DNA of 64,000 nucleotides, taken from Tardibacter chloracetimidivorans (GTDB lineage Bacteria; Pseudomonadota; Alphaproteobacteria; Sphingomonadales; Sphingomonadaceae). The stretch is taken from the NCBI RefSeq assembly GCF_001890385.1, contig NZ_CP018221.1, forward strand, positions 1,165,501 to 1,229,500. The letters run 5' to 3'. Positions 3,839 through 17,170 of the stretch are shown piece after piece. The notes under the pieces are model-generated. The model was not told the origin of the DNA, did not search any database, and worked only from the letters and a program-made list of their open reading frames with translations. The position numbers and the translations under genes were made by a program. Within the stretch, counting starts at the first letter, position 1. The number at the start of each line of letters is the position of its first letter.

Positions 3839-4888
3839 CTAGCCCAGCGCGACGGTGGCGATCGGCCGGTCTGCTTCATGCAGCGCGCGCGAGCGGCGAT
3901 CCACGCCCAGTTCCTTTGCAAACCACCGGCAGGTGGCGGCCAGCCCCTCCTTCAGCGGCACCTGCGGCGCCCAGTCGAGCAGCGCCTTGGCGCGGCCGAT
4001 GTCTGGCCGACGCCGCCGGGGATCGTCGACAGGAAGCGGCTTGTGGATGACGGGCGCGTTGCTGCCGGTGAGCGCGATCACCTGCTCCAGCAATTCCGAG
4101 ATGGTGTATTCGTCCGGATTGCCGAGGTTGACCGGCGAATGCGGCATGTCGTCGCGCTCCATCAGCCGTATCAGCCCTTCGACCATGTCGGATATGTAGC
4201 AGAAGCTGCGCGTCTGCGAGCCGTCGCCATAGATGGTGATGTCGCTTCCAGACAGCGCCTGACAGACAAGGTTCGACACGACGCGGCCGTCGTCGGGGTG
4301 CATCTGCGGGCCATAGGTGTTGAACAGGCGGGCGACCCGCACCTCGGCTCGGCCCATGCGCGCGAAATCGAACGCCATAGCCTCTGCCGCCCGCTTGCCC
4401 TCGTCATAGCAGGCGCGCGGGCCGGTGCAGTTCACCCAGCCGCGATAATCCTCGTGCTGCGGATGGGCTTCCGGATCGCCATAGACTTCGCTGGTGGACG
4501 ACAGCAGAAATCGCGCGCCGGTCTCTTCCGCCAGCCGCAGCAGGCGGTCTGCGCCCATCACGTTGGTGAGCATCGTATGCTCTGGGTCCGCCTGATATTG
4601 CGGCGGCGAGGCCGCGCAGGCGAGATTGTAGATGCGCGTGATCCTGCCTGCATATTCGTAGACCGAGAGTGGCAGCGGATCGACGATGTCGGCCCGGATG
4701 AAGGAAAAGCCCGGCTGGCCCTTCAACTGCTTCAGGTTGACGGGACGGCAGGTCTGGAGATTGTCGATGCAGAGCACCTGCTGCCCCTTGTCGAGCAGGG
4801 CCTGGCACAGGTGCGATCCGATGAAACCGGCGCCGCCGGCAACCACTGTTACGCTGTCATGTCCGTTCTTCATCCGACCATTCTCCAT
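3839..4888 (-). CDS. NAD-dependent SDR, UDP-glucuronate decarboxylase (UDP-xylose synthase)-like
   Basis: About 349 residues, an extended SDR. The nucleotide-binding GGAGFIG lies near residue 20, the S-S-T-S catalytic region at about 130 and Y161-x-x-x-K165 (YDEGK). The stretch N-L-A-C-A-A-S-P-P-x-Y and the following P-R-A-C-Y-D-E-G-K are hallmarks of UDP-glucuronate decarboxylases, which make UDP-xylose. It is the last gene of a seven-gene leftward operon. The start is uncertain: ATGs at 4942, 4888 and 4873 are in frame. 4942 would overlap the upstream gene by 26 nt; 4873 has GGAG at reasonable distance. Confidence 0.8.
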   Translation of the reverse strand: MENGRMKNGHDSVTVVAGGAGFIGSHLCQALLDKGQQVLCIDNLQTCRPVNLKQLKGQPGFSFIRADIVDPLPLSVYEYAGRITRIYNLACAASPPQYQADPEHTMLTNVMGADRLLRLAEETGARFLLSSTSEVYGDPEAHPQHEDYRGWVNCTGPRACYDEGKRAAEAMAFDFARMGRAEVRVARLFNTYGPQMHPDDGRVVSNLVCQALSGSDITIYGDGSQTRSFCYISDMVEGLIRLMERDDMPHSPVNLGNPDEYTISELLEQVIALTGSNAPVIHKPLPVDDPRRRRPDIGRAKALLDWAPQVPLKEGLAATCRWFAKELGVDRRSRALHEADRPIATVALG

Positions 4889-4916
4889 ATGGCCCTTTGC
4901 TTCCCTGCCGGCGTCG

Positions 4917-5999
4917 TCATCCGGCTTCGGCCAGGGATGCATTCGCCCTCACCGGCGTTGCTTCGCGGATATGCGCTTCCAGCTCGGCGGCCCTGGCGGA
5001 TGCGGTGTGCAGCGCAAGCACGCGGCTGCGGGCCTTGCGCCCCATCGCCTCGCCATCGCCGTCGATGATCGCCGCGACGACATCTTCGGTGTCGGCGGCA
5101 AGGATGATCTCCTCCCCCGGCGCCAGAAGCTCATCAAGGCCGGGCCAGATGTCGGAAATGATCGGCGTGCCGCATGCCGCAGCCTCGAACAGCCGGACGG
5201 ACGGGGACCAGCCGGCACGGATCATGTCGGCGCGCGTGACGTTGAGCGCATATCCGGACGCCGAATAGAACTCAGCGTGCAGCGCGGGGGGAAGGTGGTC
5301 GATCCGCTCCACATTGGCGGGCCATGCAATGCCTGCCGGATATTGCGCACCGGCTACGGCGAAACGGCGGTCCGGCATCCGTGCCGCGACATCGATGAGC
5401 AGGCGCTCAAGCGTTGGCTGGCGGTCGACGCTGTAGGTGCCGAGATAGGTCAGATCCCACCGCTTCTCGACCGGCCGGGGCCGGTAGGCGTCCGGATCGA
5501 CCGAGCAATAGAGAGCGCGCGCGGCCGGAGCGCCATGGCGCCGCTCGATCAGCTCCAGCGTCGGCCCGCCGGTGAAGGACAGATAAAGGTCATAGCCGGC
5601 GATGAGCTGCGGCGACAGATAATCGCAGTCGCCGTCCGCGATGCGGGCGAGCGTGACCGGCGTGTCGATGTCGTAGAAGGCCGTCACGCCCCCTGCCCAT
5701 TGCTGGGCGAGCCGGCCGACGGCGATCCCGTCCGGCACATAGGAGCCGACGATCACCGCGTCCGCCGATGCGATCTCGCTGTGCCAGCGGGAAAGCTCGT
5801 CGACGCTGCCGTAGAACGCCAGATCGCAATAATCCGGATGCCAAAGATCGCGGTGGCTGGCGTACCAGGGCACGTCGCGTTCAAGGAACAGCACCTCATG
5901 GCCGCGCGCGGCAAAGGCAGTCAGCAAGGCGCGATAGGTGGTGGCGTGCCCGTTCCCCCATGAGGAGGACAGGCTGAGGCCGAGGACGACGAGCTTCAT
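4917..5999 (-). CDS. Glycosyltransferase (CgeB/DUF3880-type)
   Basis: 360 residues from the ATG at 5999, which overlaps the upstream stop (ATGA). The N-terminus, MKLVVLGLSLSSSWGNGHAT, shares its pattern with the next two genes: short strand, S-x-x-W-x-x-G-x-A-x-x-Y-R, then a helix and R-G-H. The C-terminal half has the nucleotide-sugar-binding pattern R-L-F-E-A-A-A-C-G-T-P-I-I-S-D, typical of GT-B enzymes. No signal peptide or membrane segment, so it probably acts on the cytoplasmic side. Donor and acceptor are unknown; the neighbouring epimerases suggest deoxy-sugar or pentose donors. Confidence 0.75.
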   Translation of the reverse strand: MKLVVLGLSLSSSWGNGHATTYRALLTAFAARGHEVLFLERDVPWYASHRDLWHPDYCDLAFYGSVDELSRWHSEIASADAVIVGSYVPDGIAVGRLAQQWAGGVTAFYDIDTPVTLARIADGDCDYLSPQLIAGYDLYLSFTGGPTLELIERRHGAPAARALYCSVDPDAYRPRPVEKRWDLTYLGTYSVDRQPTLERLLIDVAARMPDRRFAVAGAQYPAGIAWPANVERIDHLPPALHAEFYSASGYALNVTRADMIRAGWSPSVRLFEAAACGTPIISDIWPGLDELLAPGEEIILAADTEDVVAAIIDGDGEAMGRKARSRVLALHTASARAAELEAHIREATPVRANASLAEAG

Positions 6000-7087
6000 T
6001 CCGCCGCCTCCATCACGCGCGCACGATATTGGGTGAGCAGCCCGTCGACCTGCGCGCCGCGCAGCGCATAGCTGTGCTCCGCCCGCACGCGCCGCAAGGC
6101 CGCATCCCCGATCTGCCGCGCTCTTTCCGGCGTGAGGGTGGAAAGATGCTCGATCACATCCATGCCGTCGCGAGCGACGAGCACCTCCTCGCCCGGCGTC
6201 AGGAACATCTCTATCCCTTCCCATGCATCGGTGATGAGGCAGGCCCCTGCGCCCGCCGCCTCGAACACGCGGGTCGCGGGCGAAAAGCCCATCTGCGCCA
6301 TGCTGTCGCGCGCCACGTTCAAGAGAGCCAGCGGGGTTGAATTGAAGGCGTTGTGATCAGCCGTATAGACATGGCCCAAATGCCGGACGTTTTCCGGCAT
6401 TTCCTTGCTTTCCCAACCGCTGCCGCCGATCAGGAACTGCCTGTCGAGCAGCGCGGCGGCGGGCTTCAGGAAGAACTGCTCGACCCTGCTCTCGCGGTCC
6501 GGCAGCCGGTTTCCGAGAAAGGCGAAATCCGCGGAAAAGCGCGCATCGGGCGGCACCGGGAAATGGGTGGTCGCGTCAAGCGCGTTGTAGACCGGCACAC
6601 AGGCGCGCGCGCCCATCTCCCGATAGGCGTTCACCACCGGATCGCCGCCGCCATAGGTGAGGACCAGGTCCAGTTCCGGCAGCGCGCGGCGCACCGCATG
6701 GGCGGGATCGGCCTTCATTTCATCCAGCGTCGCGGCTGCGTCCACGTCCCAGAAGATGCGGATGGCGCGCGGGGCCGCCGGCTCGATCATGCCATCCAGC
6801 AGCTCATCGTCGAAGACGCCGACGCCGCTTGCCTTGACGACGACATCCGCGTCGCCTGCCTCTGCAAGAACCTGTCGCACCGCCTGCGCGGTGGCGGGAT
6901 AGACGACGACCTTCGCCCAGTCGGGCGGATCCATGTCCCGATGTTGCTGCCGGTCGAACGCGTCGGGCTCGTAAAAGCTGATCTGATGTCCGCGCGCGGC
7001 CAGATCGCGCAATATGCCGCGATAATAGGTGGCCGCGCCGTTCCAGTAGGATGAGAGCAGGCTGGAACCGTAGAACGCTATTTTCAT
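5996..7087 (-). CDS. Glycosyltransferase (CgeB/DUF3880-type)
   Basis: 363 residues. The N-terminal signature S-S-Y-W-N-G-A-A-T-Y-Y-R-G-I-L followed by A-A-R-G-H matches the flanking glycosyltransferases, indicating tandem duplication. The C-terminal domain has R-V-F-E-A-A-G-A-G-A-C-L-I-T-D and P-G-E-E-V-L-V-A, the pattern of the Glyco_trans_1_2 type GT-B domain. It overlaps both neighbours by 4 nt, so translation is probably coupled. Sugar specificity cannot be read from the sequence. Confidence 0.75.
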   Translation of the reverse strand: MKIAFYGSSLLSSYWNGAATYYRGILRDLAARGHQISFYEPDAFDRQQHRDMDPPDWAKVVVYPATAQAVRQVLAEAGDADVVVKASGVGVFDDELLDGMIEPAAPRAIRIFWDVDAAATLDEMKADPAHAVRRALPELDLVLTYGGGDPVVNAYREMGARACVPVYNALDATTHFPVPPDARFSADFAFLGNRLPDRESRVEQFFLKPAAALLDRQFLIGGSGWESKEMPENVRHLGHVYTADHNAFNSTPLALLNVARDSMAQMGFSPATRVFEAAGAGACLITDAWEGIEMFLTPGEEVLVARDGMDVIEHLSTLTPERARQIGDAALRRVRAEHSYALRGAQVDGLLTQYRARVMEAAE

Positions 7088-8199
7088 GCGGATTTCCTCG
7101 CGAATTCGGCGGAAGGAGCGAGCGATTGAACGATGCCGAGGAGTTCGTCGGCGCGGTGGGCGCAGCTGTGACGTGCGCGGATCGTCTCCAGCCCGCTCGC
7201 GATCAGCGCGGCACGCACCGCCGGTTCCTCCTTCAGCATCCGGAGATGACCGGCCATTTCGGCCCCGTCGCGGGCGACGAGAAAGTCCGTGCCAGGCCTG
7301 AACAGATTTTCGGAATCCTCCCAGGGGGCGGACACCAGCGGAATGCCGCAGGCGAGCGCCTCGAACACCCTGATCGTCGGAATGCCGGGCAGGATCGTCG
7401 CGTAATAGCGGCGCGGCACATGTACCGTCGCCAGATGCCGCGCAAAGATTTCCGGCACGCGCGCATTGGCCGCCCAGCCATGATAGCGCGCATGATACCG
7501 GGCAAGCGTCCTCCGCGCCGCTTCGGGATAGCGCACCCCATAGACGTCGAGCGGCAACTGGGCCGCCCTCGTGGGGGCGAACAGAAAGTCCGTCAGTTCC
7601 TGCGTGCGCTCGCCGTCGCCCCAGTTGCCGATCCAGACCAGGCCATCGCGGTGGCCCGCCCCGGCCGGTGGGCGGAACAGCAGCGTGTCGGCAGCCTCGT
7701 GCCAGGTCCAGATGCGATCACCCCAGCCCCAGCGGCGGTAGACCTCGGCCAGCGCTTCGCCGAAAGCGAGCACGCCGTCATAGCCCGAAAGATTAAAGGC
7801 GCGGATTGCCTTTGGGTCGCTCACCGCCCGATGGTGCGTATCGTGGAACAGCAGGTTGAACCGGCCGCCCCGCTTCCTGAGCTGACCGATCGCGGTGACA
7901 AGGCCGGGCTCGTTCCATTCATGCACGACGACCAGATCGGCGTCGCCGATCAGCGCGGCGCAATCGTCCTCCGGCGTATAGGCCCGCGCCTGAAGCTCCG
8001 GATAGGCTGTGCGGAACGGCTCCAGTCCTTCAACGCCGTGGTCCGCCAGCAGATTGGCGAGGCTCCAGCCGTGCCAGGGCTCAAGCGCAACCACATCATG
8101 GCCGCGCAACGCCAGTTCGCGCAGTACGCCGCGCAGGAAATGCGCGTTGCCGTGGTTCCAGCATGAAGCGAGCGAATGGGTGAAATAGACGATCTTCAT
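7084..8199 (-). CDS. Glycosyltransferase (CgeB/DUF3880-type)
   Basis: 371 residues, the third paralogue of the tandem set. The start reads M-K-I-V-Y-F-T-H-S-L-A-S-C-W-N-H-G-N-A with R-G-V-L and R-G-H downstream. The C-terminal half carries P-T-I-R-V-F-E-A-L-A-C-G-I-P-L-V-S-A, then a P-G-T-D-F-L-V-A segment as in its neighbours. Cytoplasmic GT-B fold expected. It overlaps the previous and following genes by 4 nt. Confidence 0.75.
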   Translation of the reverse strand: MKIVYFTHSLASCWNHGNAHFLRGVLRELALRGHDVVALEPWHGWSLANLLADHGVEGLEPFRTAYPELQARAYTPEDDCAALIGDADLVVVHEWNEPGLVTAIGQLRKRGGRFNLLFHDTHHRAVSDPKAIRAFNLSGYDGVLAFGEALAEVYRRWGWGDRIWTWHEAADTLLFRPPAGAGHRDGLVWIGNWGDGERTQELTDFLFAPTRAAQLPLDVYGVRYPEAARRTLARYHARYHGWAANARVPEIFARHLATVHVPRRYYATILPGIPTIRVFEALACGIPLVSAPWEDSENLFRPGTDFLVARDGAEMAGHLRMLKEEPAVRAALIASGLETIRARHSCAHRADELLGIVQSLAPSAEFARKSA

Positions 8200-9308
8200 G
8201 CTGCCGCCGTCCTGCGCAAGGGAGCGGCGGATCGGGCGAGGCCGTCATGGATGGCGGCCATGTCGCGCGCCATCCGCGCCGGGCTGTAGCGCCGCGCGTG
8301 CAGCATCGCGCGCTTGCCGCTTTCAAGACGCAACGAGACGTCGCCGACAAGCTCCCCGATCGCAGAGGTGAAGCCGGCGACGTCATCGGGCGCGACAAAG
8401 GTCGCGACCCCGTCCCACAGTTCGCGGAATGTCGGGATATCGGACAGCACCAGCGCGCATCCGGCATTGGCCGCCTCCAGCACGGCCAGGCCGAACGGCT
8501 CGTACCGGGCGGCGGACACGAAGACGGGACGAGCGGCAAGGCAGGAAAGAAGCACCTCCTCCTCCACCTGCCCCATCAGGTGCAGGTTCGAGAGCTTCAC
8601 CGCTTCGCCATGCGGGCCGCGCACGCTTCCCGCCGCCTTGAAGGGAATGGCGAGGCCTGCCGCCACCGCATCGAGAACCCGGGCGTTCTTGGCCTTGTCC
8701 CACAGCCGTCCGGCCGTGAAGGCGAAGTCATGCATTCCGGCCGGGGCGCAGCTTGTCGAGCGGCCGTTGTAGACCACCAGCGGGCGTCTGGAGAGGCGAT
8801 AGCAGCCGCTCAACGCATCGGCGAAACTGACCGAAGGCGCGACGACGCGGTCGGCCGTTGCAATGCCTTCAGCCGTCATCTTTGCACGCCACTCAAGATC
8901 AAGCGGCAATGGCCCGTCATTGACGGCGCGCCACCATGTCCCCACGCAGCTGTGCGCCACCGCGACCACGGGCGCTTCAAACCGGCCCGACACGGCAAGC
9001 GCCGGGGCATGAAGCTGGACCACATCGGGCGCGATGCCGGTGCTCAACTCTGCGATCGCGCTTGCGCTCGCGACGACTTCCGCAGGGGTTTTGGCGGTCC
9101 AGTCCAGCGGCAGGCCGGTTTCGATGATCCGCACGTCGCCGACGTCGGTCACGGCGCGGCGCTGTTCGGCCGTGGGCGAAGGCCCGAGCACCGCAATCGT
9201 CGTGCGATAGCCGAGCGGCTTCAACGCAGCCACGAGATCGGCCGTATATTGCCACACGCCGCCGACCGCGTCGGTCGTGATGAAGAGATGCCGCGCGGCG
9301 CGCGTCAT
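8196..9308 (-). CDS. Glycosyltransferase family 4-like
   Basis: 370 residues, GT-B type. The N-terminal domain has the acceptor-side glycine stretch D-A-V-G-G-V-W-Q-Y, and the C-terminal domain has the GT4 motif E-P-F-G-L-A-V-L-E-A-A-N-A-G-C, whose first glutamate normally contacts the donor nucleotide sugar. It differs from the three CgeB-like enzymes downstream and may start the oligosaccharide, though the order of action is not deducible. It overlaps both neighbours by 4 nt inside the leftward operon. Confidence 0.78.
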   Translation of the reverse strand: MTRAARHLFITTDAVGGVWQYTADLVAALKPLGYRTTIAVLGPSPTAEQRRAVTDVGDVRIIETGLPLDWTAKTPAEVVASASAIAELSTGIAPDVVQLHAPALAVSGRFEAPVVAVAHSCVGTWWRAVNDGPLPLDLEWRAKMTAEGIATADRVVAPSVSFADALSGCYRLSRRPLVVYNGRSTSCAPAGMHDFAFTAGRLWDKAKNARVLDAVAAGLAIPFKAAGSVRGPHGEAVKLSNLHLMGQVEEEVLLSCLAARPVFVSAARYEPFGLAVLEAANAGCALVLSDIPTFRELWDGVATFVAPDDVAGFTSAIGELVGDVSLRLESGKRAMLHARRYSPARMARDMAAIHDGLARSAAPLRRTAAA

Positions 9309-10405
9309 GCCACCCCTCCCACTATTGCAAGCCGGGGAGATGCCGGGCCGCCTGATGTGCGCTCATCGGCGAGCCAGAGGGCAAGCCGGGCCACGCCCTC
9401 CCGCCAGAAGACCTTCCCACCAAGACCGAGCGCGCGATCGATGCGTCGCGTATCGGCGACGAAATAGCGCTGGTCGCCCTCGCGCCAGGGAGCGAAGCCA
9501 AGCTTCACCTCCCGCCCCAGAAGATCGGAGATGTGCGCGATCAGCTGGCGCAGGCTGACGGCGTTGGCCGGGCCGCCACCAAGATTGAAGGCGTGGCCGC
9601 TTGCCGCGCCGATGTTGCGCCAGAGCGCCAGATAGGCGTCCACCGCATCGGCGACATTCAACACGTCCCGCACCTGATGGCCGTCGCCATAGAGGGTGAT
9701 CTCGCGCCCCTCCATCGCGCGGATCAGGAAGTGGGCGACCCAGCCCTGATCCTCGGTCCCCATCTGGCGCTCGCCATAGATGCAGCTCATCCGCAGCACT
9801 GCCGCCGGGATGCCGAAGCTGCGCGCGTAATCCAGCACATATTGATCGGCAGCCCCCTTGGAGCAGCCATAGGGCGTATGGAAATCGAGCGGCCGGTCCT
9901 CGCCGATGCCGCGACCCGCGATCACGCGATCGACGGGCGCATATCCGCCTGTGCCAAGCTCCAGCGCGACATCGGCGAGATCGCCATAGACCTTGTTGGT
10001 GGAGGCGAAGATCACCGGCGGCGGATCGCTGCGGCGACGCACAGCCTCCAGCAGATTGAGCGTGCCGATGGCGTTGACCTCGAAATCGCCGCGCGGATCG
10101 TCAAGGCTGGTCGTGACGGCCACCTGCGCGGCCATGTGAAAGACCGCCGATGCCTGTTTCACCGCATCCGACAGGAGCGCCGCGTCGCGAATGTCGCCAA
10201 GAACGGGCATGATCCGTTTGCCGTGCCGCCATTGCAGCCATTCCAGATTGCGCTCCACCCCCGGCCGGGCGAGCGAGTCATAGACGATGACGTCGCGCCC
10301 GGAGTCTGCCAGCCGGGCGGCGATGTTCGAGCCGATGAAGCCTGCGCCGCCGGTCACGAGCACGGGGCGGCCATCGTCCATCGGAGCGGGAGGGCGGGCG
10401 GTCAC
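9305..10405 (-). CDS. NAD-dependent SDR, CDP-paratose 2-epimerase-like
   Basis: 366 residues, extended SDR. It has GGAGFIG at 19-25, a FASTNKVYGD segment near 133-142 and Y179-x-x-x-K183 (YGCSK) followed by G-A-A-D-Q-Y-V. The TNKVYGD and YGCSKGAADQ patterns are characteristic of CDP-paratose/CDP-tyvelose 2-epimerases. No partner genes for making CDP-paratose (cytidylyltransferase, 4,6-dehydratase, 3-dehydrase) are in the window, so the true substrate may differ. It has a 4-nt overlap with each neighbour. Confidence 0.75.
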   Translation of the reverse strand: MTARPPAPMDDGRPVLVTGGAGFIGSNIAARLADSGRDVIVYDSLARPGVERNLEWLQWRHGKRIMPVLGDIRDAALLSDAVKQASAVFHMAAQVAVTTSLDDPRGDFEVNAIGTLNLLEAVRRRSDPPPVIFASTNKVYGDLADVALELGTGGYAPVDRVIAGRGIGEDRPLDFHTPYGCSKGAADQYVLDYARSFGIPAAVLRMSCIYGERQMGTEDQGWVAHFLIRAMEGREITLYGDGHQVRDVLNVADAVDAYLALWRNIGAASGHAFNLGGGPANAVSLRQLIAHISDLLGREVKLGFAPWREGDQRYFVADTRRIDRALGLGGKVFWREGVARLALWLADERTSGGPASPRLAIVGGVA

Positions 10406-11526
10406 GCGACCAGCCCCCGGGCCTCAAGCTCCGCCCTTGCCTCGGCCACACGGTCGGACGCGGTCTGCTGTGCGACCCATTCGGAAAGCTCCTGCAGGCC
10501 TCGCCCGAAATCCTCGCGCGCGCTGAAGCCCAGTTCGCGCTCCGCCTTCGTGGTGTCGCAAAAGCAGTGCCGGATATCGCCCACCCGCGCCTTGCCGACG
10601 ATTTCGGGTCTCAGATCCTCCCGGCCCATGGCGCGCGCCAGTTCGACCGCGACCTCGGCCACCGAGCGGTCGCGACCCGAGCCAATATTGAAGGTTTCGC
10701 CTGCCGCCTCCGGAAGCTCCAGCGCATCGGCAAAGGCGCGGGCGACATCGCGAACATGGACAAAGTCGCGCCGCTGCTCGCCGTCCTCGAAGATCATCGG
10801 CGGCTGCCCGTTGAGCAGCCGGGCGGCGAATATGGCGAGGACGCCGGTATAGGGATTGGACAGCGCCTGCCCCGGCCCATAGACGTTGAACAGCCGCAGG
10901 CACACGCCCTCCATTCCATAGGGCTCGGCCATGATGTGCGTCGTGCGCTCCTGGACATATTTATTGAGCGCATAGACGGAGGCGAGGCTGGGCCGCTTCC
11001 ATTCCGGCGTGGCGAGCGGGGCGAGCGGCCTGCCCTTCCCGTCCACCGGCTCCCAGTTGCGCTGGCCGTCGCGCAGCATGGGGCGCGCAGCGTCTTCCAC
11101 CGGATTGCCTTCCGCGTCGCGATAAAGGCCCTCGCCATAGATGCTCATGGACGACGCGGTCACGATCCGCCGCACCGGCCGCTCGATGAGCCGCTGGAAC
11201 AATATCGCCGTGCCAAGGTCGTTGACCGAAGTGTATCGCTCCACTTCGTACATCGACTGGCCGACGCCCACCTCGGCCGCGAGGTGAACGACACAGTCGA
11301 TGCCGCAGAGCGCGCGATCCACCGCGCCGGAGTTGCGGATGTCGGCCCGGATCAGTTCGACATCGGGATGCAGGTCGGCGGGCCGATCCGTGTCGCCGTC
11401 CGTGTCCCCGTGTACCTGCTCGATCAGGCTGTCGAGGACGCGGACGGAATAGCCGCGCCGCAGAAGCTCTTTGCAGACGGAGCGCCCGATGAAGCCCGCG
11501 CCGCCAGTGACCAGAACATTTTCCAT
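10402..11526 (-). CDS. NAD-dependent SDR, dTDP-rhamnose 4-epimerase / UDP-glucose 4-epimerase-like
   Basis: 374 residues, extended SDR: GGAGFIG at 8-14, the S-S-M-S-I-Y-G-E-G catalytic serine segment at about 125-133, and Y185-x-x-x-K189 (YALNK). An insertion of about 35 residues between these (NPVEDAARPM through TPEWKRPS) is typical of the WbiB-like dTDP-L-rhamnose 4-epimerases. It is the first gene of the leftward operon, with its ATG 37 nt from an EcfG-type promoter. Substrate assignment is by family resemblance only. Confidence 0.75.
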   Translation of the reverse strand: MENVLVTGGAGFIGRSVCKELLRRGYSVRVLDSLIEQVHGDTDGDTDRPADLHPDVELIRADIRNSGAVDRALCGIDCVVHLAAEVGVGQSMYEVERYTSVNDLGTAILFQRLIERPVRRIVTASSMSIYGEGLYRDAEGNPVEDAARPMLRDGQRNWEPVDGKGRPLAPLATPEWKRPSLASVYALNKYVQERTTHIMAEPYGMEGVCLRLFNVYGPGQALSNPYTGVLAIFAARLLNGQPPMIFEDGEQRRDFVHVRDVARAFADALELPEAAGETFNIGSGRDRSVAEVAVELARAMGREDLRPEIVGKARVGDIRHCFCDTTKAERELGFSAREDFGRGLQELSEWVAQQTASDRVAEARAELEARGLVA

Positions 11527-11732: not shown

Positions 11733-12317
11733 ATGAAGATCTTTCTTGTTCGGCATGGCGCACATTCAGAGCTTGGCAAGGTGCTGAGCGGCCGCAGCCA
11801 GATTTCGTTGGATGCCGAAGGCGAAAGGCAGATTTCGCGGCTGGCCGAGCAACTCGCGGACAAGGGCATCGCCCGGATTGAGACCAGTCCCCGCCCGCGC
11901 ACCCGGCGGACGGCGGACATCATCGCCCGGCGGCTGGGCGTGGAAGTGGAGGTGGCGGATGCGTTGGACGAGATCGATTTCGGCGAGTGGACCGGCAAGA
12001 GCTATTCCGCCCTCGACGCAGACCCACGCTGGCATCGCTGGAACGACATGCGCGCAGCGGCGGCCACGCCCGGCGGTGAAGACATGAACGCGGTGGCCGA
12101 ACGCATCGGGCGCCATCTGGAAGAACTGGCGAGGACCGACGGCGCGCCGGTGCTGTGCGTGAGCCACGGCGACGTCATCAAGGCCGGCATCGCCCGTTAT
12201 CTGGGGCTGAGCCTCGATCATCTGCTGCGCTTCGACGTCGATCCGGCGTCCGTCAGCGTGATCGAAGCCGGCCCCTGGGGCGGACGCCTGACGCTGCTGA
12301 ACGGAGGCGCACCGTGA
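11733..12317 (+). CDS. Histidine phosphatase family protein
   Basis: 194 residues. The phosphohistidine motif R7-H8-G9 (VRHGA) is near the start, E80 lies in D-E-I-D-F-G-E-W, and the second histidine H145 in CVSHGD completes the phosphoglycerate-mutase-type active site. The size fits single-domain cobC/gpmB-type phosphatases. First gene of the rightward operon, next to an inositol-phosphate-synthase homologue; removal of phosphate from a sugar or inositol phosphate is a plausible role, but it is inference. The stop overlaps the next start. Confidence 0.82.
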   Translation: MKIFLVRHGAHSELGKVLSGRSQISLDAEGERQISRLAEQLADKGIARIETSPRPRTRRTADIIARRLGVEVEVADALDEIDFGEWTGKSYSALDADPRWHRWNDMRAAAATPGGEDMNAVAERIGRHLEELARTDGAPVLCVSHGDVIKAGIARYLGLSLDHLLRFDVDPASVSVIEAGPWGGRLTLLNGGAP

Positions 12318-13120
12318 GCGTGATGACGAAGCGCCAGAGCCATGTGCGCCAGCGGGTGGCCGAGCTTGGCCCCTGGTTTCACAACATCTGCATCGACGGC
12401 GTGTGGACCGCGCCCGACCATTTCCTGGGCAATTATCCGGATGTGAAGTTCGGCCGCTTTGCCGATGCCCTCCCCGCCGATCTTACCGGCAAGACGGTGC
12501 TGGACATCGGCTGCAACGCCGGATTCTATTCAGTGGAGATGAAGCAGCGCGGCGCAGCCGAAGTGCTGGGCATCGACTGGGACGACCATTATCTGGATCA
12601 GGCGCGCTTCGTCGCCGATGAACTGGGCCTCGACATCGGCTTTGAAAAGCTGTCCGTCTATGACGTGGCCCGACTGGGCCGCCGGTTCGACCTCGTCATC
12701 TTCATGGGCGTGCTTTACCACCTGCGGCACCCGCTGCTTGCGCTGGACCTGATCCGCGAACATGTGGCGGGCGACCTGCTGCTGTTCCAGACGATGCAGC
12801 GCGGCAGCGAGGAGGTGGTCGACGTTCCGGCCGACCACCCGTTCCACATGCCGGGGACCACGCGGCCGCCCGACTATTTCAACGATCCGGGCTATCCGCG
12901 CCTGCACTTCATCGAGCGCAAATATGCAGGCGACTGGACGAACTGGTGGGCGCCCAACCGCGCCTGTTCCGAAGCCATGCTGCGCGCGGCCGGTTTTTCC
13001 ATCGAAAGCCGGCCGGAAGAGGAAGTCTACATCTGCCGCGTCGCCGGAATGCCCTGTGCCGGATGGGGCATGGAAAGCGGCGCCGTCTACCCGGCTCGCC
13101 CTCAGGAGGACCATGAATGA
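12314..13120 (+). CDS. SAM-dependent methyltransferase
   Basis: 268 residues from a GTG at 12314, chosen because GGAGG (12303-12307) is 6 nt upstream and the GTGA overlaps the previous stop. The Rossmann motif I is VLDIGCNAG (62-70), followed by an acidic G-I-D-W-D-D strand end and the F-M-G-V-L-Y-H-L-R-H-P segment seen in carbohydrate and tRNA-modification methyltransferases (CmoB-like). It resembles the family annotated as TIGR04290 (Rta_06860 type), from memory, which occurs beside a GH-like gene and an inositol-3-phosphate synthase. The methyl acceptor is unknown. Confidence 0.8.
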   Translation: MSVMTKRQSHVRQRVAELGPWFHNICIDGVWTAPDHFLGNYPDVKFGRFADALPADLTGKTVLDIGCNAGFYSVEMKQRGAAEVLGIDWDDHYLDQARFVADELGLDIGFEKLSVYDVARLGRRFDLVIFMGVLYHLRHPLLALDLIREHVAGDLLLFQTMQRGSEEVVDVPADHPFHMPGTTRPPDYFNDPGYPRLHFIERKYAGDWTNWWAPNRACSEAMLRAAGFSIESRPEEEVYICRVAGMPCAGWGMESGAVYPARPQEDHE

Positions 13121-14040
13121 TTGAAGCAGCGATGATCTGGAACGAGCCCAACAACAAATCGCATTGGGACCCCGAGCTTGACCCCGAATGGGCGATCTAC
13201 GCCGACACGGTAATCCGGGCGGGCGCTGCGATCGAGACGGCGAATCCGGCCATCACCAAGGTATTGGGCGGCATGTCGCCGATCGACCCCCATTGGGTCA
13301 ATCTGATGCGCGGACAGGGCGCGCTGGACGCCGTCGATGTGGTTGCGGTCCACGGCTTTCCGCTGGACTGGAACCTGTGGCCGATCCACGCCTGGCCCGA
13401 AAAGATCGCCGAGATCGAACAGGTCGTGCCGGACAAGCCGGTCTGGGTGACCGAAGTGGGCGTGAGTTCCTTTGGGGCGGAGGAAGTGCAGGTCTTCGGG
13501 CTGGAGCGCACGGCCGAACTGCTGATCGGCCGCGCGCCGCGCGTCTTCTGGTATTCGCTTTATGACCTGCCGCAAAGCTGGGGAGCTACCACCCGCCACA
13601 GGGAGGCGGAAGGATCGAGCTATTACCGGCATTTCTACATGGGCCTGCTGCGCGAGGACGGAAGCCCGAAACCCGCGCTTGCCCGTTACGACCGCCACGC
13701 CGCCGACATGGGCCTGATGCAGTGGTTCCATTTCGAGGACCCGAGGCTGGACGACGCAGTCGCGTGCATGAAGCAGCTGGGCGTCCGCCATCTGCGCACC
13801 GGGCTGAGCTGGGCGGACAGCTTCCGCCCCGGCGCGCTCGACTGGTTCGACCGGCAGATGGAGGCGCTCACGGACTTCGACGTGACCCTCACCTTCTGCT
13901 TCACGCCCGAGCATCTGGGGATTGTCCCCCACCACACCAGCCCCGCGCGCGAACCGCAGGCCTTTGCCGATTTCTGCGGCTGGATGATCGAACGCTATGC
14001 CCCCGCGGTTATCGAGGAACGGGTCGCGATCCGCGCCTGA
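13117..14040 (+). CDS. GH-A clan (beta-xylosidase-like) protein with apparently permuted barrel order
   Basis: 307 residues. The protein begins directly with a clan GH-A acid/base motif, WNEPN (E10), and has the nucleophile-type strand WVTEVGVSSF (E113) and a strand-8-like VFWYSLYDLP. After that it contains segments that look like barrel strands 1-3: L-G-V-R-H-L-R-T-G-L-S-W-A, then V-T-L-T-F-C-F-T-P-E-H-L-G, then a helix F-A-D-F-C-G-W-M-I-E-R-Y-A. In ordinary GH39/GH5-like enzymes those strands precede WNEPN. No signal peptide, so it is cytoplasmic and may act as a synthase-like or trimming enzyme in the pathway rather than a scavenging hydrolase. Confidence 0.7.
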   Translation: MIEAAMIWNEPNNKSHWDPELDPEWAIYADTVIRAGAAIETANPAITKVLGGMSPIDPHWVNLMRGQGALDAVDVVAVHGFPLDWNLWPIHAWPEKIAEIEQVVPDKPVWVTEVGVSSFGAEEVQVFGLERTAELLIGRAPRVFWYSLYDLPQSWGATTRHREAEGSSYYRHFYMGLLREDGSPKPALARYDRHAADMGLMQWFHFEDPRLDDAVACMKQLGVRHLRTGLSWADSFRPGALDWFDRQMEALTDFDVTLTFCFTPEHLGIVPHHTSPAREPQAFADFCGWMIERYAPAVIEERVAIRA

Positions 14041-14052
14041 AGGAGACGGCCG

Positions 14053-15174
14053 ATGCTCGCGCCTGCCGCAAACCCGATCAACCTGGCCATCGTCGGAACC
14101 GGCAATTGCGCCAGTTCGCTCGTGCAGGGCCTTGCCCATTATGGCGAAGGCCTGAACGACCCGATCGGCCTGACCCGATATGAGATGGACCGCTATCGCC
14201 CGCACGATATTCGCGTGGTGGCGGCCTGGGACATCGACCGGCGGAAGGTGGGACAGGACGTCGCGAGCGCGATCTTCGCACGGCCCAACTGCACCACCCG
14301 CTTCTGCGAAGCGGTGGCGGATACGGGAACCTTGGTGGAAATGGGCCGGCTGCTGGACGGCGTCGCCGATCATATGAGCGACTATCCGGCCGACCGCACC
14401 TTTGTCCCCGCCGAACTGCCGGAGCCTTCCGAGGACGAAGTGACGGAGCGGCTGCGCGACGAGCGCGTCGACGTGATGATCAACTATCTGCCGGTCGGAA
14501 GCCAGCAAGCGACGGAGTTCTACGCCACATGCGCGCTGAAGGCCGGGGTTGCGTTCGTGAACGCAATGCCCGTGTTCATCGCCAGCGATCCGGCATGGGC
14601 GCGGCGCTTCGCCGAGGCGGGCGTTCCGGTCATCGGCGACGACATCAAGGCGCAGCTTGGCGCGACGATCGTCCACCGCGCATTGACCGACCTGTTCCGC
14701 CGGCGGGGCGTGACGCTGGACCGCACCTATCAGCTCAATACAGGCGGCAACACCGACTTCCTCAACATGCTGAACCGCACAAGGCTGACGTCGAAGAAGA
14801 TATCGAAGACCGAGGCGGTGCAATCGGTCGCCGCGCGCCGGATGGAGGATGAGAACATCCACATCGGCCCGTCCGATTACGTCGCCTGGCAGAACGACAA
14901 CAAGGTCTGCTTCCTGCGCATGGAAGGCCGCATGTTCGGCGGCGTGCCGCTGAACCTGGAGCTGCGCCTGTCGGTGGAAGACAGCCCCAATTCGGCCGGA
15001 GTGGCGATCGACATGATCCGCTGCGCCAAGATCGCGCTGGATCGCGGGCTGGCCGGCCCCATCGAACCGGCGGCGGCGCTGTTCTGCAAGCATCCGCCCC
15101 GCCAGATGACCGATGACGCCGCCCATGATGCGCTGGAGGCTTTTTTGAACGAAGGCGCGAAGGTGAGCGCATGA
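14053..15174 (+). CDS. Inositol-3-phosphate synthase homologue
   Basis: 373 residues. It starts with the NAD-binding motif IVGTGNCASSLVQGL, as in actinobacterial and archaeal myo-inositol-1-phosphate synthases. It retains V-M-I-N-Y-L-P-V-G-S, V-I-G-D-D-I-K-A-Q-L-G-A-T, Y-Q-L-N-T-G-G-N-T-D-F-L-N-M and K-K-I-S-K-T, the segments forming the active site of that family. The family cyclises glucose-6-phosphate to inositol-3-phosphate. It lies 12 nt after the GH-A-like gene. Inositol lipids and inositol glycans are uncommon in proteobacteria, which makes this gene the best pointer to an unusual product. Confidence 0.85.
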   Translation: MLAPAANPINLAIVGTGNCASSLVQGLAHYGEGLNDPIGLTRYEMDRYRPHDIRVVAAWDIDRRKVGQDVASAIFARPNCTTRFCEAVADTGTLVEMGRLLDGVADHMSDYPADRTFVPAELPEPSEDEVTERLRDERVDVMINYLPVGSQQATEFYATCALKAGVAFVNAMPVFIASDPAWARRFAEAGVPVIGDDIKAQLGATIVHRALTDLFRRRGVTLDRTYQLNTGGNTDFLNMLNRTRLTSKKISKTEAVQSVAARRMEDENIHIGPSDYVAWQNDNKVCFLRMEGRMFGGVPLNLELRLSVEDSPNSAGVAIDMIRCAKIALDRGLAGPIEPAAALFCKHPPRQMTDDAAHDALEAFLNEGAKVSA

Positions 15175-16130
15175 TGATGAGGGTCGCAGTGCTGACGGCA
15201 CCCGGCGAAGTACGCGTGGAGGAAGCGCCCCTGCCCGCTCCCGGCGCCGGACAGGTGCGGGTGAGGCTGGAGGGATGCGGGGTCTGCGCGTCCAACCTCA
15301 CGCCGTGGGCGGGGCCGGAATGGATGCAGTTCCCGACCGAGGGAGGTGCGCTGGGCCATGAAGGCTGGGGCATCGTCGATGCGGTGGGGCCGGACGTCGC
15401 AGAGGTGAAGCCGGGCGACCGGGTCGCCGCGCTGTCGTACAACAGCTATGCCGAATATGATCTGGCGGCGGCGAATGCCGTCGTGCGCCTCCCGCCGGAG
15501 CTAGACGCAACGCCATTCCCGGGCGAGCCGCTGGGCTGCGCCATGAACATCTTCCGCCGCAGCGGCATTGCGACGGGGCAGACCGTCGCGATCATCGGCA
15601 TCGGCTTTCTGGGCGCGCTGCTGACGCGGCTCGCAAGCCAGGCGGGCGCGCGGGTGATCGCCATCTCGCGCCGCCGGTCCAGCCTGGACCTGGCGCGGAC
15701 GTTCGGCGCGGCGGAAACCATCGCGATGGAGGACCACAACGATATCATCGAAAAGGTCCGTGAGCTGACGCAAGGCCGCTTCTGCGAGCGGGTGATCGAG
15801 GCGGTGGGCAAGCAATGGCCTCTCGACCTTGCCGCCGAACTCACCGCCGAGCGCGGCCGCCTTGTCGTGGCGGGCTATCATCAGGATGGTCCCCGCCAGA
15901 TCAACATGTGGCTGTGGAACTGGCGGGGCATCGACGTCATCAACGCGCATGAACGCGACCCGTCCGCCTATGTCGCGGGGATCGCCGATGCGGTGGAGGC
16001 GGTCGTGTCGGGGCGGATCGACCCCTCGCTGCTCTACACCCATTATTACCCGCTGGAGCGGCTGGGCGAGGCGCTGGACGCGACGCGCGACCGTCCGGAA
16101 GGTTTCGTCAAGGCATTGGTGACGCCATGA
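15171..16130 (+). CDS. Medium-chain dehydrogenase/reductase (zinc-type)
   Basis: 319 residues, MDR superfamily. The N-terminal GroES-like domain has E-G-C-G-V-C-A-S-N and G-H-E-G-W-G (catalytic Cys and His-Glu), but the usual four-cysteine structural zinc loop is absent. The Rossmann domain has I-I-G-I-G-F-L-G-A-L at about 139-148. It is coupled to the previous gene by overlap; alternative starts are the adjacent ATG codons at 15174 and 15177. It would oxidise or reduce an alcohol or ketone on a sugar or cyclitol; the Gfo/Idh neighbour suggests a keto-intermediate pathway. Confidence 0.8.
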   Translation: MMMRVAVLTAPGEVRVEEAPLPAPGAGQVRVRLEGCGVCASNLTPWAGPEWMQFPTEGGALGHEGWGIVDAVGPDVAEVKPGDRVAALSYNSYAEYDLAAANAVVRLPPELDATPFPGEPLGCAMNIFRRSGIATGQTVAIIGIGFLGALLTRLASQAGARVIAISRRRSSLDLARTFGAAETIAMEDHNDIIEKVRELTQGRFCERVIEAVGKQWPLDLAAELTAERGRLVVAGYHQDGPRQINMWLWNWRGIDVINAHERDPSAYVAGIADAVEAVVSGRIDPSLLYTHYYPLERLGEALDATRDRPEGFVKALVTP

Positions 16131-17170
16131 CCGAGGCAGCCCTTGCCACAGCGCCGGCCATGGCCGCGCGGCCGCGTCCCCGGATCGGCTTTCTCGGCAC
16201 CGGGTGGATCGGGCGGCACCGGATGGAGGCGCTTTGCGGAAGCGGGCTGGTGGATGCCGTGGCATGCGCGGATTCGTCGCACGAATGCCTTGCCGAAGCG
16301 CAGCGTCTCGCCCCCGGCGCGGCTGCCGCAACTTCGCTGGACGAACTGCTCGGCCTTGATCTCGACGGCGTCGTCATCGCAACGCCAAGCGCGCTTCATG
16401 CCGAACAGGCGATCAGGGTGCTGGAACATGGGCTTGCAGTCTTCTGCCAGAAGCCGCTTGGCCGCAACGGCGCCGAGACGCAGAAGGTGATCGCCGCCGC
16501 CCGCGCCGCCGACCGGCTTTTGGGGGTAGACCTCTGCTATCGCCATACCGAAGCGATGCGGCAGATCCGAAACCTGCTGTCCACAGGCGCGCTTGGGCGC
16601 GTCCATGCGCTCGATCTGGTCTTCCACAATGCCTATGGACCGGACAAGCCCTGGTTCTACGACCCGCGCCTTTCGGGCGGTGGTTGCGTGATGGACCTTG
16701 GTATCCATCTGGTGGACCTGGCGCTCTGGGCGCTGGATTTTCCCGAGATCGTGCAAGTCTCCTCCGCGCTCTATGCGGGCGGGGAGCCATTGGCGAACCG
16801 GACGGCGATGGTTGAGGACTATGCCGTCGCCACTCTTCACCTCGGCAATGGCGCGGTCGTGCGCCTCGCCTGCTCGTGGCGGCTGCATGCAGGGTGCGAC
16901 GCCGTCATCTCCGCAAGCTTCTTCGGCACGGACGGCGGCGCGACGCTGCGCAACGTCAATGGTTCCTTCTATGATTTCGTCGCCGAACATCATCAGGGGA
17001 CGTCGAACCTGACGCTCGCATCCCCGCCGGACGAATGGGGCGGCCGCGCGGCGATCGCATGGGCGCAGCAGTTGACGGTCAGCCCCCGCTACCGGCGGGA
17101 GGCGGATCGACTGACCGACGTGGCCCGTGCGCTGGACCTGATCTATGCAGCTTGCCCGTCCGCCGGGTGA
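16127..17170 (+). CDS. Gfo/Idh/MocA family oxidoreductase
   Basis: 347 residues. The N-terminal Rossmann motif is GFLGTGWIG (about 22-30), and the family signature C-Q-K-P-L (usual E-K-P) follows A-T-P-S-A-L-H. The C-terminal alpha/beta domain includes G-G-G-C-V-M-D-L-G-I-H-L-V-D, which supplies the catalytic Asp and His. Members oxidise inositols and sugars or act on keto-sugars. Last gene of the rightward operon. The Q in place of E in the EKP motif is a mild variation. Confidence 0.85.
   Translation: MTEAALATAPAMAARPRPRIGFLGTGWIGRHRMEALCGSGLVDAVACADSSHECLAEAQRLAPGAAAATSLDELLGLDLDGVVIATPSALHAEQAIRVLEHGLAVFCQKPLGRNGAETQKVIAAARAADRLLGVDLCYRHTEAMRQIRNLLSTGALGRVHALDLVFHNAYGPDKPWFYDPRLSGGGCVMDLGIHLVDLALWALDFPEIVQVSSALYAGGEPLANRTAMVEDYAVATLHLGNGAVVRLACSWRLHAGCDAVISASFFGTDGGATLRNVNGSFYDFVAEHHQGTSNLTLASPPDEWGGRAAIAWAQQLTVSPRYRREADRLTDVARALDLIYAACPSAG

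Follow-up and report, generated by a model that had tools for sequence, protein, structure and literature searches.

The gene located at 13117..14040 (+) encodes a 307-aa protein whose clan GH-A (GH39/PslG-like) barrel is circularly permuted, as judged from its open reading frame, its profile matches and its predicted structure. All coordinates refer to the window, i.e. the whole 64,000-nt stretch of Tardibacter chloracetimidivorans DNA that was analyzed (contig NZ_CP018221.1 of assembly GCF_001890385.1), and the window protein is designated P0001. The order of the barrel strands along its chain is 4-5-6-7-8-1-2-3 and not the 1 to 8 order of clan GH-A. The explanation favored here, to which a probability of about 0.8 is given, is that of a permuted GH-A glycosidase with a preserved active site, standing in for a copy fused to SDR1 and playing a role in a cytoplasmic glycan pathway. 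The permutation, its conservation and the sharing of the gene cluster were established by computation. The protein would be a cytoplasmic, retaining beta-glycosidase-type enzyme of clan GH-A fold, with PslG (GH39) as its nearest solved relative. The permutation would have retained both the barrel and the active site, Glu10 acting as acid/base and Glu113 as nucleophile. The permuted gene appears to occupy the place taken in other Alphaproteobacteria by an unpermuted, SDR1-fused copy, within a putative glycan assembly cluster comprising SDRs, four glycosyltransferases, a UDP-glucuronate-decarboxylase-like SDR and a methyltransferase. Most likely, the enzyme would act on a cytoplasmic glycan intermediate by trimming, proof-reading or transferring a glycosyl unit.

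The initial annotation had proposed a circularly permuted GH-A-like barrel, and this proposal is borne out by the profile comparisons, the predicted model and the existence of homologues in the normal order. Residues 1-195 (13117..13701, +) contain barrel strands 4-8 and helix 8, and residues 196-296 (13702..14004, +) contain strands 1-3 and helix 3, as delimited by the model secondary structure and the profile matches. The protein begins at strand 4 with the motif WNEPN and ends after helix 3, which is where strand 4 would begin, as had been claimed. The motif had been placed at residues 7-11; it is indeed present but occupies residues 8-12, its Glu being residue 10. Nothing homologous precedes it, in agreement with the view that strands 1-3 find no room there. 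A profile built from six normal-order domains (A2) matches the native window protein in two reversed pieces of 101.9 bits (hmm 109-290 on residues 6-191) and 51.5 bits (hmm 3-102 on residues 198-295). When the protein is cut at residue 192 and rotated, a single piece of 154.3 bits (hmm 3-285) is obtained, and cut-point scans with the same profile peak near 186-198. The total score only rises from 151.1 to 154.7 bits upon rotation (about 167 without the C-terminal tail) because scoring is local; what matters is that the two pieces become one. Shuffled controls reached at most 0.4 bits in 50 shuffles versus 151.1 for the window protein. The two reversed pieces were recovered in all of the 100 distinct permuted proteins, and 67 invariant columns are common to the rotated P0001 and four normal-order domains. 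The reciprocal search, using a normal-order query, revealed the reversed arrangement in six genomes of the permuted form. The window protein therefore possesses homologues carrying the same segments exchanged, both of them complete. The old termini seem, from the alignments, to be joined near residues 186-198 by a short link between helix 8 and strand 1.

The permuted loci were collected from 12 fetched regions, the 80 best of a pattern scan and 11 loci of a phylum search. Some genomes occur twice among these 103 loci, which yield the 100 distinct proteins mentioned above, that of the window included. Each locus displays one co-linear match that begins at residue 1-2 and reaches residue 291 or beyond, with an identity of 66% or more. 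The aligned start codon is not ATG, GTG or TTG in five loci, where the true start must be elsewhere nearby. A single match to the C-terminal third was found per locus: neither a second copy of strands 1-3 nor a duplicated intermediate with these strands on both sides was detected in the 103 loci. In-frame upstream stretches of at least 15 aa produced two matches at chance level (E 0.15 and 0.22) in the same set. The two sequence checks put forward in the initial annotation thus came out in its favor, as no upstream in-frame segment encodes strands 1-3 and all 100 distinct proteins share the same order without an N-terminal copy of these strands.

The AlphaFold2 model of the permuted protein, computed from 13 sequences, has a mean pLDDT of 78.8 and a pTM of 0.84. 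Strands 4-8 are predicted at residues 2-8, 47-50, 75-79, 109-114 and 143-145, followed by strands 1-3 at E199-201, E225-231 and E255-261, so that in this predicted model the two halves contribute eight strands to one barrel. The C-terminal third, in which the segment GVRHLRTGLSW and a strand-3-like segment had been noticed, is thereby modeled inside the barrel as strands 1-3 and not as a separate domain. Loops with a pLDDT under 50 (residues 11-15, 83-86, 157-169, 264-266 and 268-273) include the residues right after Glu10. Comparison of the permuted model to the PDB using Foldseek and VIA-align aligned it to closed barrels from residue 1-3 to about 295-299. The matches are mixed TIM barrels with a best E of 2.3e-4 and a best Z of 13.8, the latter being 7uek (214 residues, rmsd 3.4). 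They include endoglucanases, which we take to be of the GH5 type (clan GH-A), among GH20, GH84 and unrelated TIM barrels; PslG and GH39 are absent from the 50 matches listed. No family can be assigned from the permuted model by itself. As a control, the normal-order domain was modeled alike from six sequences (pLDDT 74.5, pTM 0.80) and displays the corresponding elements in the ordinary order. This second model matches PslG at E 1.7e-12, and its structural matches at Z about 20 are PslG and mostly beta-glycosidases, presumably of the GH1 type; Klotho domains are found among its structural neighbors as well. The weak matches of the permuted model, as opposed to the strong ones of the normal-order model, agree with what is expected when sequential aligners are given a permuted barrel.

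Trp8, Asn9, Glu10, Pro11, Asn12, His79 and Glu113 are invariant in the 100 distinct permuted proteins, and both predicted catalytic Glu are kept in the six normal-order domains of A2. The signature of clan GH-A is present, N9-E10 being located at the end of strand 4 and E113 at the end of strand 7, with strands taken from the model. The strand-7 motif had been correctly assigned to E113. Glu10 (13144..13146, +) is the predicted acid/base, by conservation and by alignment to the Glu of the PslG WNEPN motif. Glu113 (13453..13455, +), in VWVTEVG, is the predicted nucleophile and aligns to the Glu of IWSTEWG in PslG. This alignment was obtained with a profile of 13 permuted proteins (A1), the only one of our PDB sequence searches to find PslG (E 4e-7). 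The match consists of two reversed pieces, residues 201-297 on chain positions 25-131 and residues 3-154 on 132-301, with both catalytic Glu aligned; the piece of the C-terminal third is weak by itself (i-Evalue 2.5). The aligned Glu of PslG are 111 residues apart, which fits the Glu165 (acid/base) and Glu276 (nucleophile) given in the available excerpt of PMC11912335. A retaining mechanism employing Glu10 and Glu113 is suggested by this alignment. Searches of PDB sequences with the normal-order domain returned nothing, either as a single sequence up to E 1 or as profile A2 up to E 0.1. No GH39 model was found among the Pfam matches of the window protein up to E 1, and no GH13 or GH70 family among its Pfam, NCBIfam and PDB-profile matches. 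Pfam recognizes the protein through PF11790 (Glyco_hydro_cc) alone, with 22.3 bits for a gathering cut-off of 21, over residues 3-120 of 307 (profile positions 67-177 of 237); the NCBIfam search gave no match up to E 0.1. The protein thereby illustrates how a profile library can overlook such permutants.

The ATG of the permuted gene, preceded by AGGAGG, overlaps by 4 nt (ATGA) the stop codon of a TIGR04290 family methyltransferase gene (12323..13120, +; 362.8 bits for a cut-off of 300). Position 12323 is the chosen start of the latter, GTG 12314 being an alternative. Among the 80 kept loci, 77 allowed the overlap to be measured, and it is exactly 4 nt in 63 of them. The permuted gene is under purifying selection, with NG86 dN/dS values of about 0.1-0.2 in six comparisons, these figures being rough as dS reaches 0.8-1.3. 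A histidine phosphatase family gene (11733..12317, +; PF00300) lies upstream of the methyltransferase gene. Downstream of the permuted gene are found a homologue of inositol-3-phosphate synthase (14053..15174, +; TIGR03450 429.5 bits, below the cut-off of 638), a zinc-binding dehydrogenase (15171..16130, +; Pfam) and a Gfo/Idh/MocA oxidoreductase (16127..17170, +; Pfam). The opposite strand carries SDR2, of the NAD-dependent epimerase/dehydratase family (10402..11526, -; Pfam and NCBIfam), the epimerase/dehydratase SDR1 (9305..10405, -; Pfam), a GT4 glycosyltransferase (8196..9308, -; Pfam and NCBIfam), three glycosyltransferases (4917..8199, -; Pfam PF13524) and SDR3 (3839..4942, -), an orthologue of proteins annotated as UDP-glucuronic acid decarboxylase family. 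The first two PF13524 open reading frames overlap, so one of their starts is probably later. UDP-xylose, UDP-apiose or another compound are candidate products of SDR3, the synthesis of UDP-apiose being considered in the light of the accessible part of PMC5607165. A phage-integrase-family gene (989-2245, -; PF00589 and PF13356) is located near one edge of the glycan cluster and may mark a genomic island.

Conservation of the neighborhood was counted in the best 80 of at least 572 relatives (E up to 1e-10), some loci being cut by contig ends. The methyltransferase is present in 77 of these loci, the phosphatase in 68, SDR2 and SDR1 in 64 each, Gfo in 63, GT4 in 61, the dehydrogenase in 60 and inositol-3-phosphate synthase in 43. 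Plasmids of Paracoccus yeei and Sinorhizobium meliloti carry all the cluster genes and a polysaccharide pyruvyl transferase. On the S. meliloti plasmid, the methyltransferase lies about 14 kb away and the permuted protein is annotated as beta-xylosidase. Genes for polysaccharide pyruvyl transferase and F420-hydrogenase-beta-like proteins were observed at L202:18626-21063 in P. yeei and L203:16876-19351 in S. meliloti. One unannotated stretch of S. meliloti 1021, picked at a guessed position, gave no match. None of the titles listed in the pathway literature searched concerns this glycan cluster, the available portions of PMC12239276 and PMC8250049 hold nothing on it, and no paper on the TIGR04290 family was found in the literature searched.

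Matches to the window protein were found in 6 of 59 near genomes and in 14 of 385 genomes of the class, its own genome being included in both counts. Eight of the 14 class matches are full-length co-linear orthologues with 66-100% identity, and the remaining six consist of two pieces in the opposite order. Profile A1 matches 22 of 398 phylum genomes: 12 are co-linear, two opposite (G217 and G680), and the other eight are weak, with best E values between 2.3e-10 and 6.5e-4. Scanning the species-genome collection with a pattern gave at least 599 stretches, at least 572 of them relatives; the best 80 relatives are all co-linear, as expected since the closest ones were kept. Plasmid records contributed 146 matches, 98 of which extend over at least 80% of the query. 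Most of the weak plasmid matches listed cover just residues 7-185 or 7-190, and several are annotated as NAD-dependent epimerase. Among these weak matches, the domain order was established for Rhizobium sp. N6212, whose protein WP_064812443.1 follows the normal order over the full domain (hmm 3-300, 493 bits).

The normal-order barrel is the N-terminal domain of an SDR protein in seven genomes, six of them from the class search (G073, G091, G153, G217, G220 and G317) and the seventh being G680. The protein that carries it is the SDR1 orthologue, with the segment equivalent to P0001 residues ~197-295 first, then that equivalent to 7-190 and finally the SDR domain. The larger piece shares 31-38% identity between the two forms, and the class search detected no permuted copy in its six normal-order genomes. 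On the Rhizobium plasmid, the fused form is accompanied by SDR1 and SDR2, the GT4 gene and the three other glycosyltransferases, together with SDR3, Gfo and the dehydrogenase. Neither a phosphatase nor an inositol-3-phosphate synthase was found on this plasmid, and methyltransferase similarity is limited to a fragment. A search at the level of the order of G220 covered three genomes. A tree was built from 51 of the 100 permuted proteins (rotated, less than 85% mutual identity), six normal-order domains and five outgroup rows, leaving out the near-identical normal-order row L032 and the decayed copy of G405. One branch (94/86) sets the permuted rows apart and another (100/99) the normal-order rows, in a rough tree with long branches and unsettled bootstrap. 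The barrel was probably permuted once. Both forms occur within family f102 (permuted in G263, normal-order in G153) and within f181 (permuted in G546 and others, normal-order in G680), which suggests transfer or differential loss.

Of the 385 class genomes, 15 are SDR2-positive (E up to 1e-90). A GH form is present in 13 of them (7 permuted, 6 normal) versus 1 of the 370 others (Fisher p 2.7e-21, related genomes not being independent). No clear SDR1 or GT4 orthologue was found in the two remaining SDR2-positive genomes, G086 and G129, and no GH in the stretches fetched from them. The methyltransferase occurs in all 11 genomes tested (7 normal-order, 4 permuted). Inositol-3-phosphate synthase, in contrast, tracks the permuted form (3 of 4 permuted versus 0 of 7 normal-order genomes tested); products or steps may therefore differ between the two forms, and this pattern counts against a simple replacement. 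It hints at an inositol-containing product variant associated with the permuted form. Two genomes contain sequences of both forms. In G405, the permuted gene (L034) is grouped with methyltransferase, phosphatase and synthase apart from the SDR-GT4 cluster, and SDR1 is fused elsewhere to a normal-order domain (L035:5835-7784); this domain has lost WNEPN and the strand-7 Glu and leaves profile positions 68-135 without a match. The SDR half of this fused protein still aligns well, and by its sequence the normal-order GH copy appears decayed or decaying. G263, a MAG as judged by the matching record L115, contains the permuted gene together with part of a fused normal-order gene, located at a contig edge and keeping the strand-7 Glu: either both forms coexist or the assembly is mixed. 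Replacement is accordingly not strict. A long open reading frame with a CxxxCxxC-like motif, which we take to resemble a B12-binding radical SAM protein, adjoins the fused GH-SDR1 genes of G405 and G263 (L173 and L174).

Several other explanations were weighed against the favored one. That the chain is no permutant at all and that its C-terminal third is a separate domain added to a partial barrel would agree with the Pfam match, which recognizes residues 3-120 alone. In alignments with the normal-order homologues, this third nevertheless corresponds to their strands 1-3, and it completes the model barrel, making such an arrangement very improbable. An assembly, frameshift or annotation artefact has a negligible probability: nothing was found in its favor, and it would have to account for 103 loci from many assemblies, each with one co-linear match at 66% identity or more, and for purifying selection. 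The existence of pseudo-enzymes in clan GH-A, exemplified by the Klotho domains near the normal-order model, raises the case of a non-enzymatic, lectin-like or scaffolding pseudo-glycosidase binding the growing glycan. Both predicted catalytic Glu are however invariant in the 100 permuted and six normal-order sequences, and the decayed normal-order copy of G405 lost exactly the catalytic motifs; we regard this case as improbable. The cytoplasmic location and biosynthetic role proposed in the initial annotation are plausible, considering the neighborhood and the lack of room for a signal peptide in a chain that begins at strand 4. Retaining clan GH-A enzymes can transglycosylate. The biosynthetic neighbors, the missing signal peptide and the inositol and nucleotide-sugar genes of the cluster would also suit a transglycosylase that forms a glycosidic bond in the product rather than hydrolyzing one. 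The sequence does not distinguish transfer from hydrolysis, the nearest solved relative PslG hydrolyzes according to the available excerpt of PMC11912335, and the transglycosylase is rated as rather unlikely.

The relationship between the two forms allows for more than one history. The permuted enzyme could be a paralogue performing a different step, in an inositol-containing branch, without having replaced the fused domain. The association of inositol-3-phosphate synthase with many permuted genes and its absence from the 7 normal-order genomes point in this direction, as do the separate location of the permuted gene in G405 and the possible presence of both forms in G263. Such a history is doubtful given that 13 of the 15 SDR2-positive genomes have either form, that among these G405 alone has both and with its normal-order copy decayed, and that the methyltransferase accompanies the two kinds in all 11 genomes tested. 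Within the favored reading of a permuted glycosidase standing in for the fused copy, a tentative scenario can be drawn in which a single permutation freed the permuted copy from its SDR fusion, the freed copy took over the same glycan step in many Alphaproteobacteria and the old copy was lost or, as in G405, is decaying. If true, the two forms would constitute a natural before-and-after pair with which to examine why permutation of TIM barrels takes place before strand 4.

Permuted TIM barrels are already known. The GH13/GH70 mapping of motifs to strands places the GH70 cut before strand 4. The GH70 glucansucrases, when compared to GH13 (clan GH-H), are likewise natural circular permutants of a glycosidase (beta/alpha)8 barrel, and their motif order II-III-IV-I, as given in the accessible part of PMC11299179, corresponds to a cut topologically at the same place as in the window protein. 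They differ from it by their clan, their independent origin and their nature of large secreted multidomain enzymes. In the literature searched, they are the natural TIM-barrel glycosidase permutants; no natural permutant of clan GH-A appeared in the titles or abstract openings listed, most subscription papers being outside the scope of this search. Transaldolase and class I aldolase are TIM barrels also related by permutation (excerpt of PMC2213659), but they are not glycosidases, the shift is of two units and the relation is remote. The CE4 domain of PgaB, which belongs to a polysaccharide system, is carbohydrate-active and likewise circularly permuted; it is described as a 7-fold alpha/beta barrel and is no glycosidase (available part of PMC13366581). 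PslG, encoded in the Psl exopolysaccharide cluster, is a GH39 endo-beta-glucosidase (PDB 4zn2, 5bx9 and 9g17) with the same barrel type and an aligned Glu pair, its gene similarly lying inside a polysaccharide synthesis cluster (excerpts of PMC9075953 and PMC11912335). The differences reside in its normal strand order, a 416-residue construct exceeding the barrel, another cluster and a remote similarity (E 4e-7). It is described as an intracellular hydrolase whose loss alters Psl signaling and biofilm formation (excerpt of PMC9075953), and it offers a precedent for the presence of a glycosidase among glycan-synthesis genes. The normal-order GH-SDR1 fusions are direct homologues with the same catalytic motifs and a matching SDR/glycosyltransferase cluster. 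They differ by the 1-8 strand order, the SDR fusion and the lack of inositol-3-phosphate synthase (7 genomes); the window protein is free-standing with a rotated barrel, and its gene overlaps that of the methyltransferase.

Each of the two topologies is still found in living relatives whose clusters match, among them rhizobia and sphingomonads that can be handled in the laboratory. The cost or benefit of the permutation is therefore directly measurable on one enzyme, and the finding also draws attention to a widespread, uncharacterized glycan pathway. A 699-aa open frame (13102-15201, -), antisense to the permuted GH gene and to the inositol-3-phosphate synthase homologue, is probably a high-GC shadow ORF.
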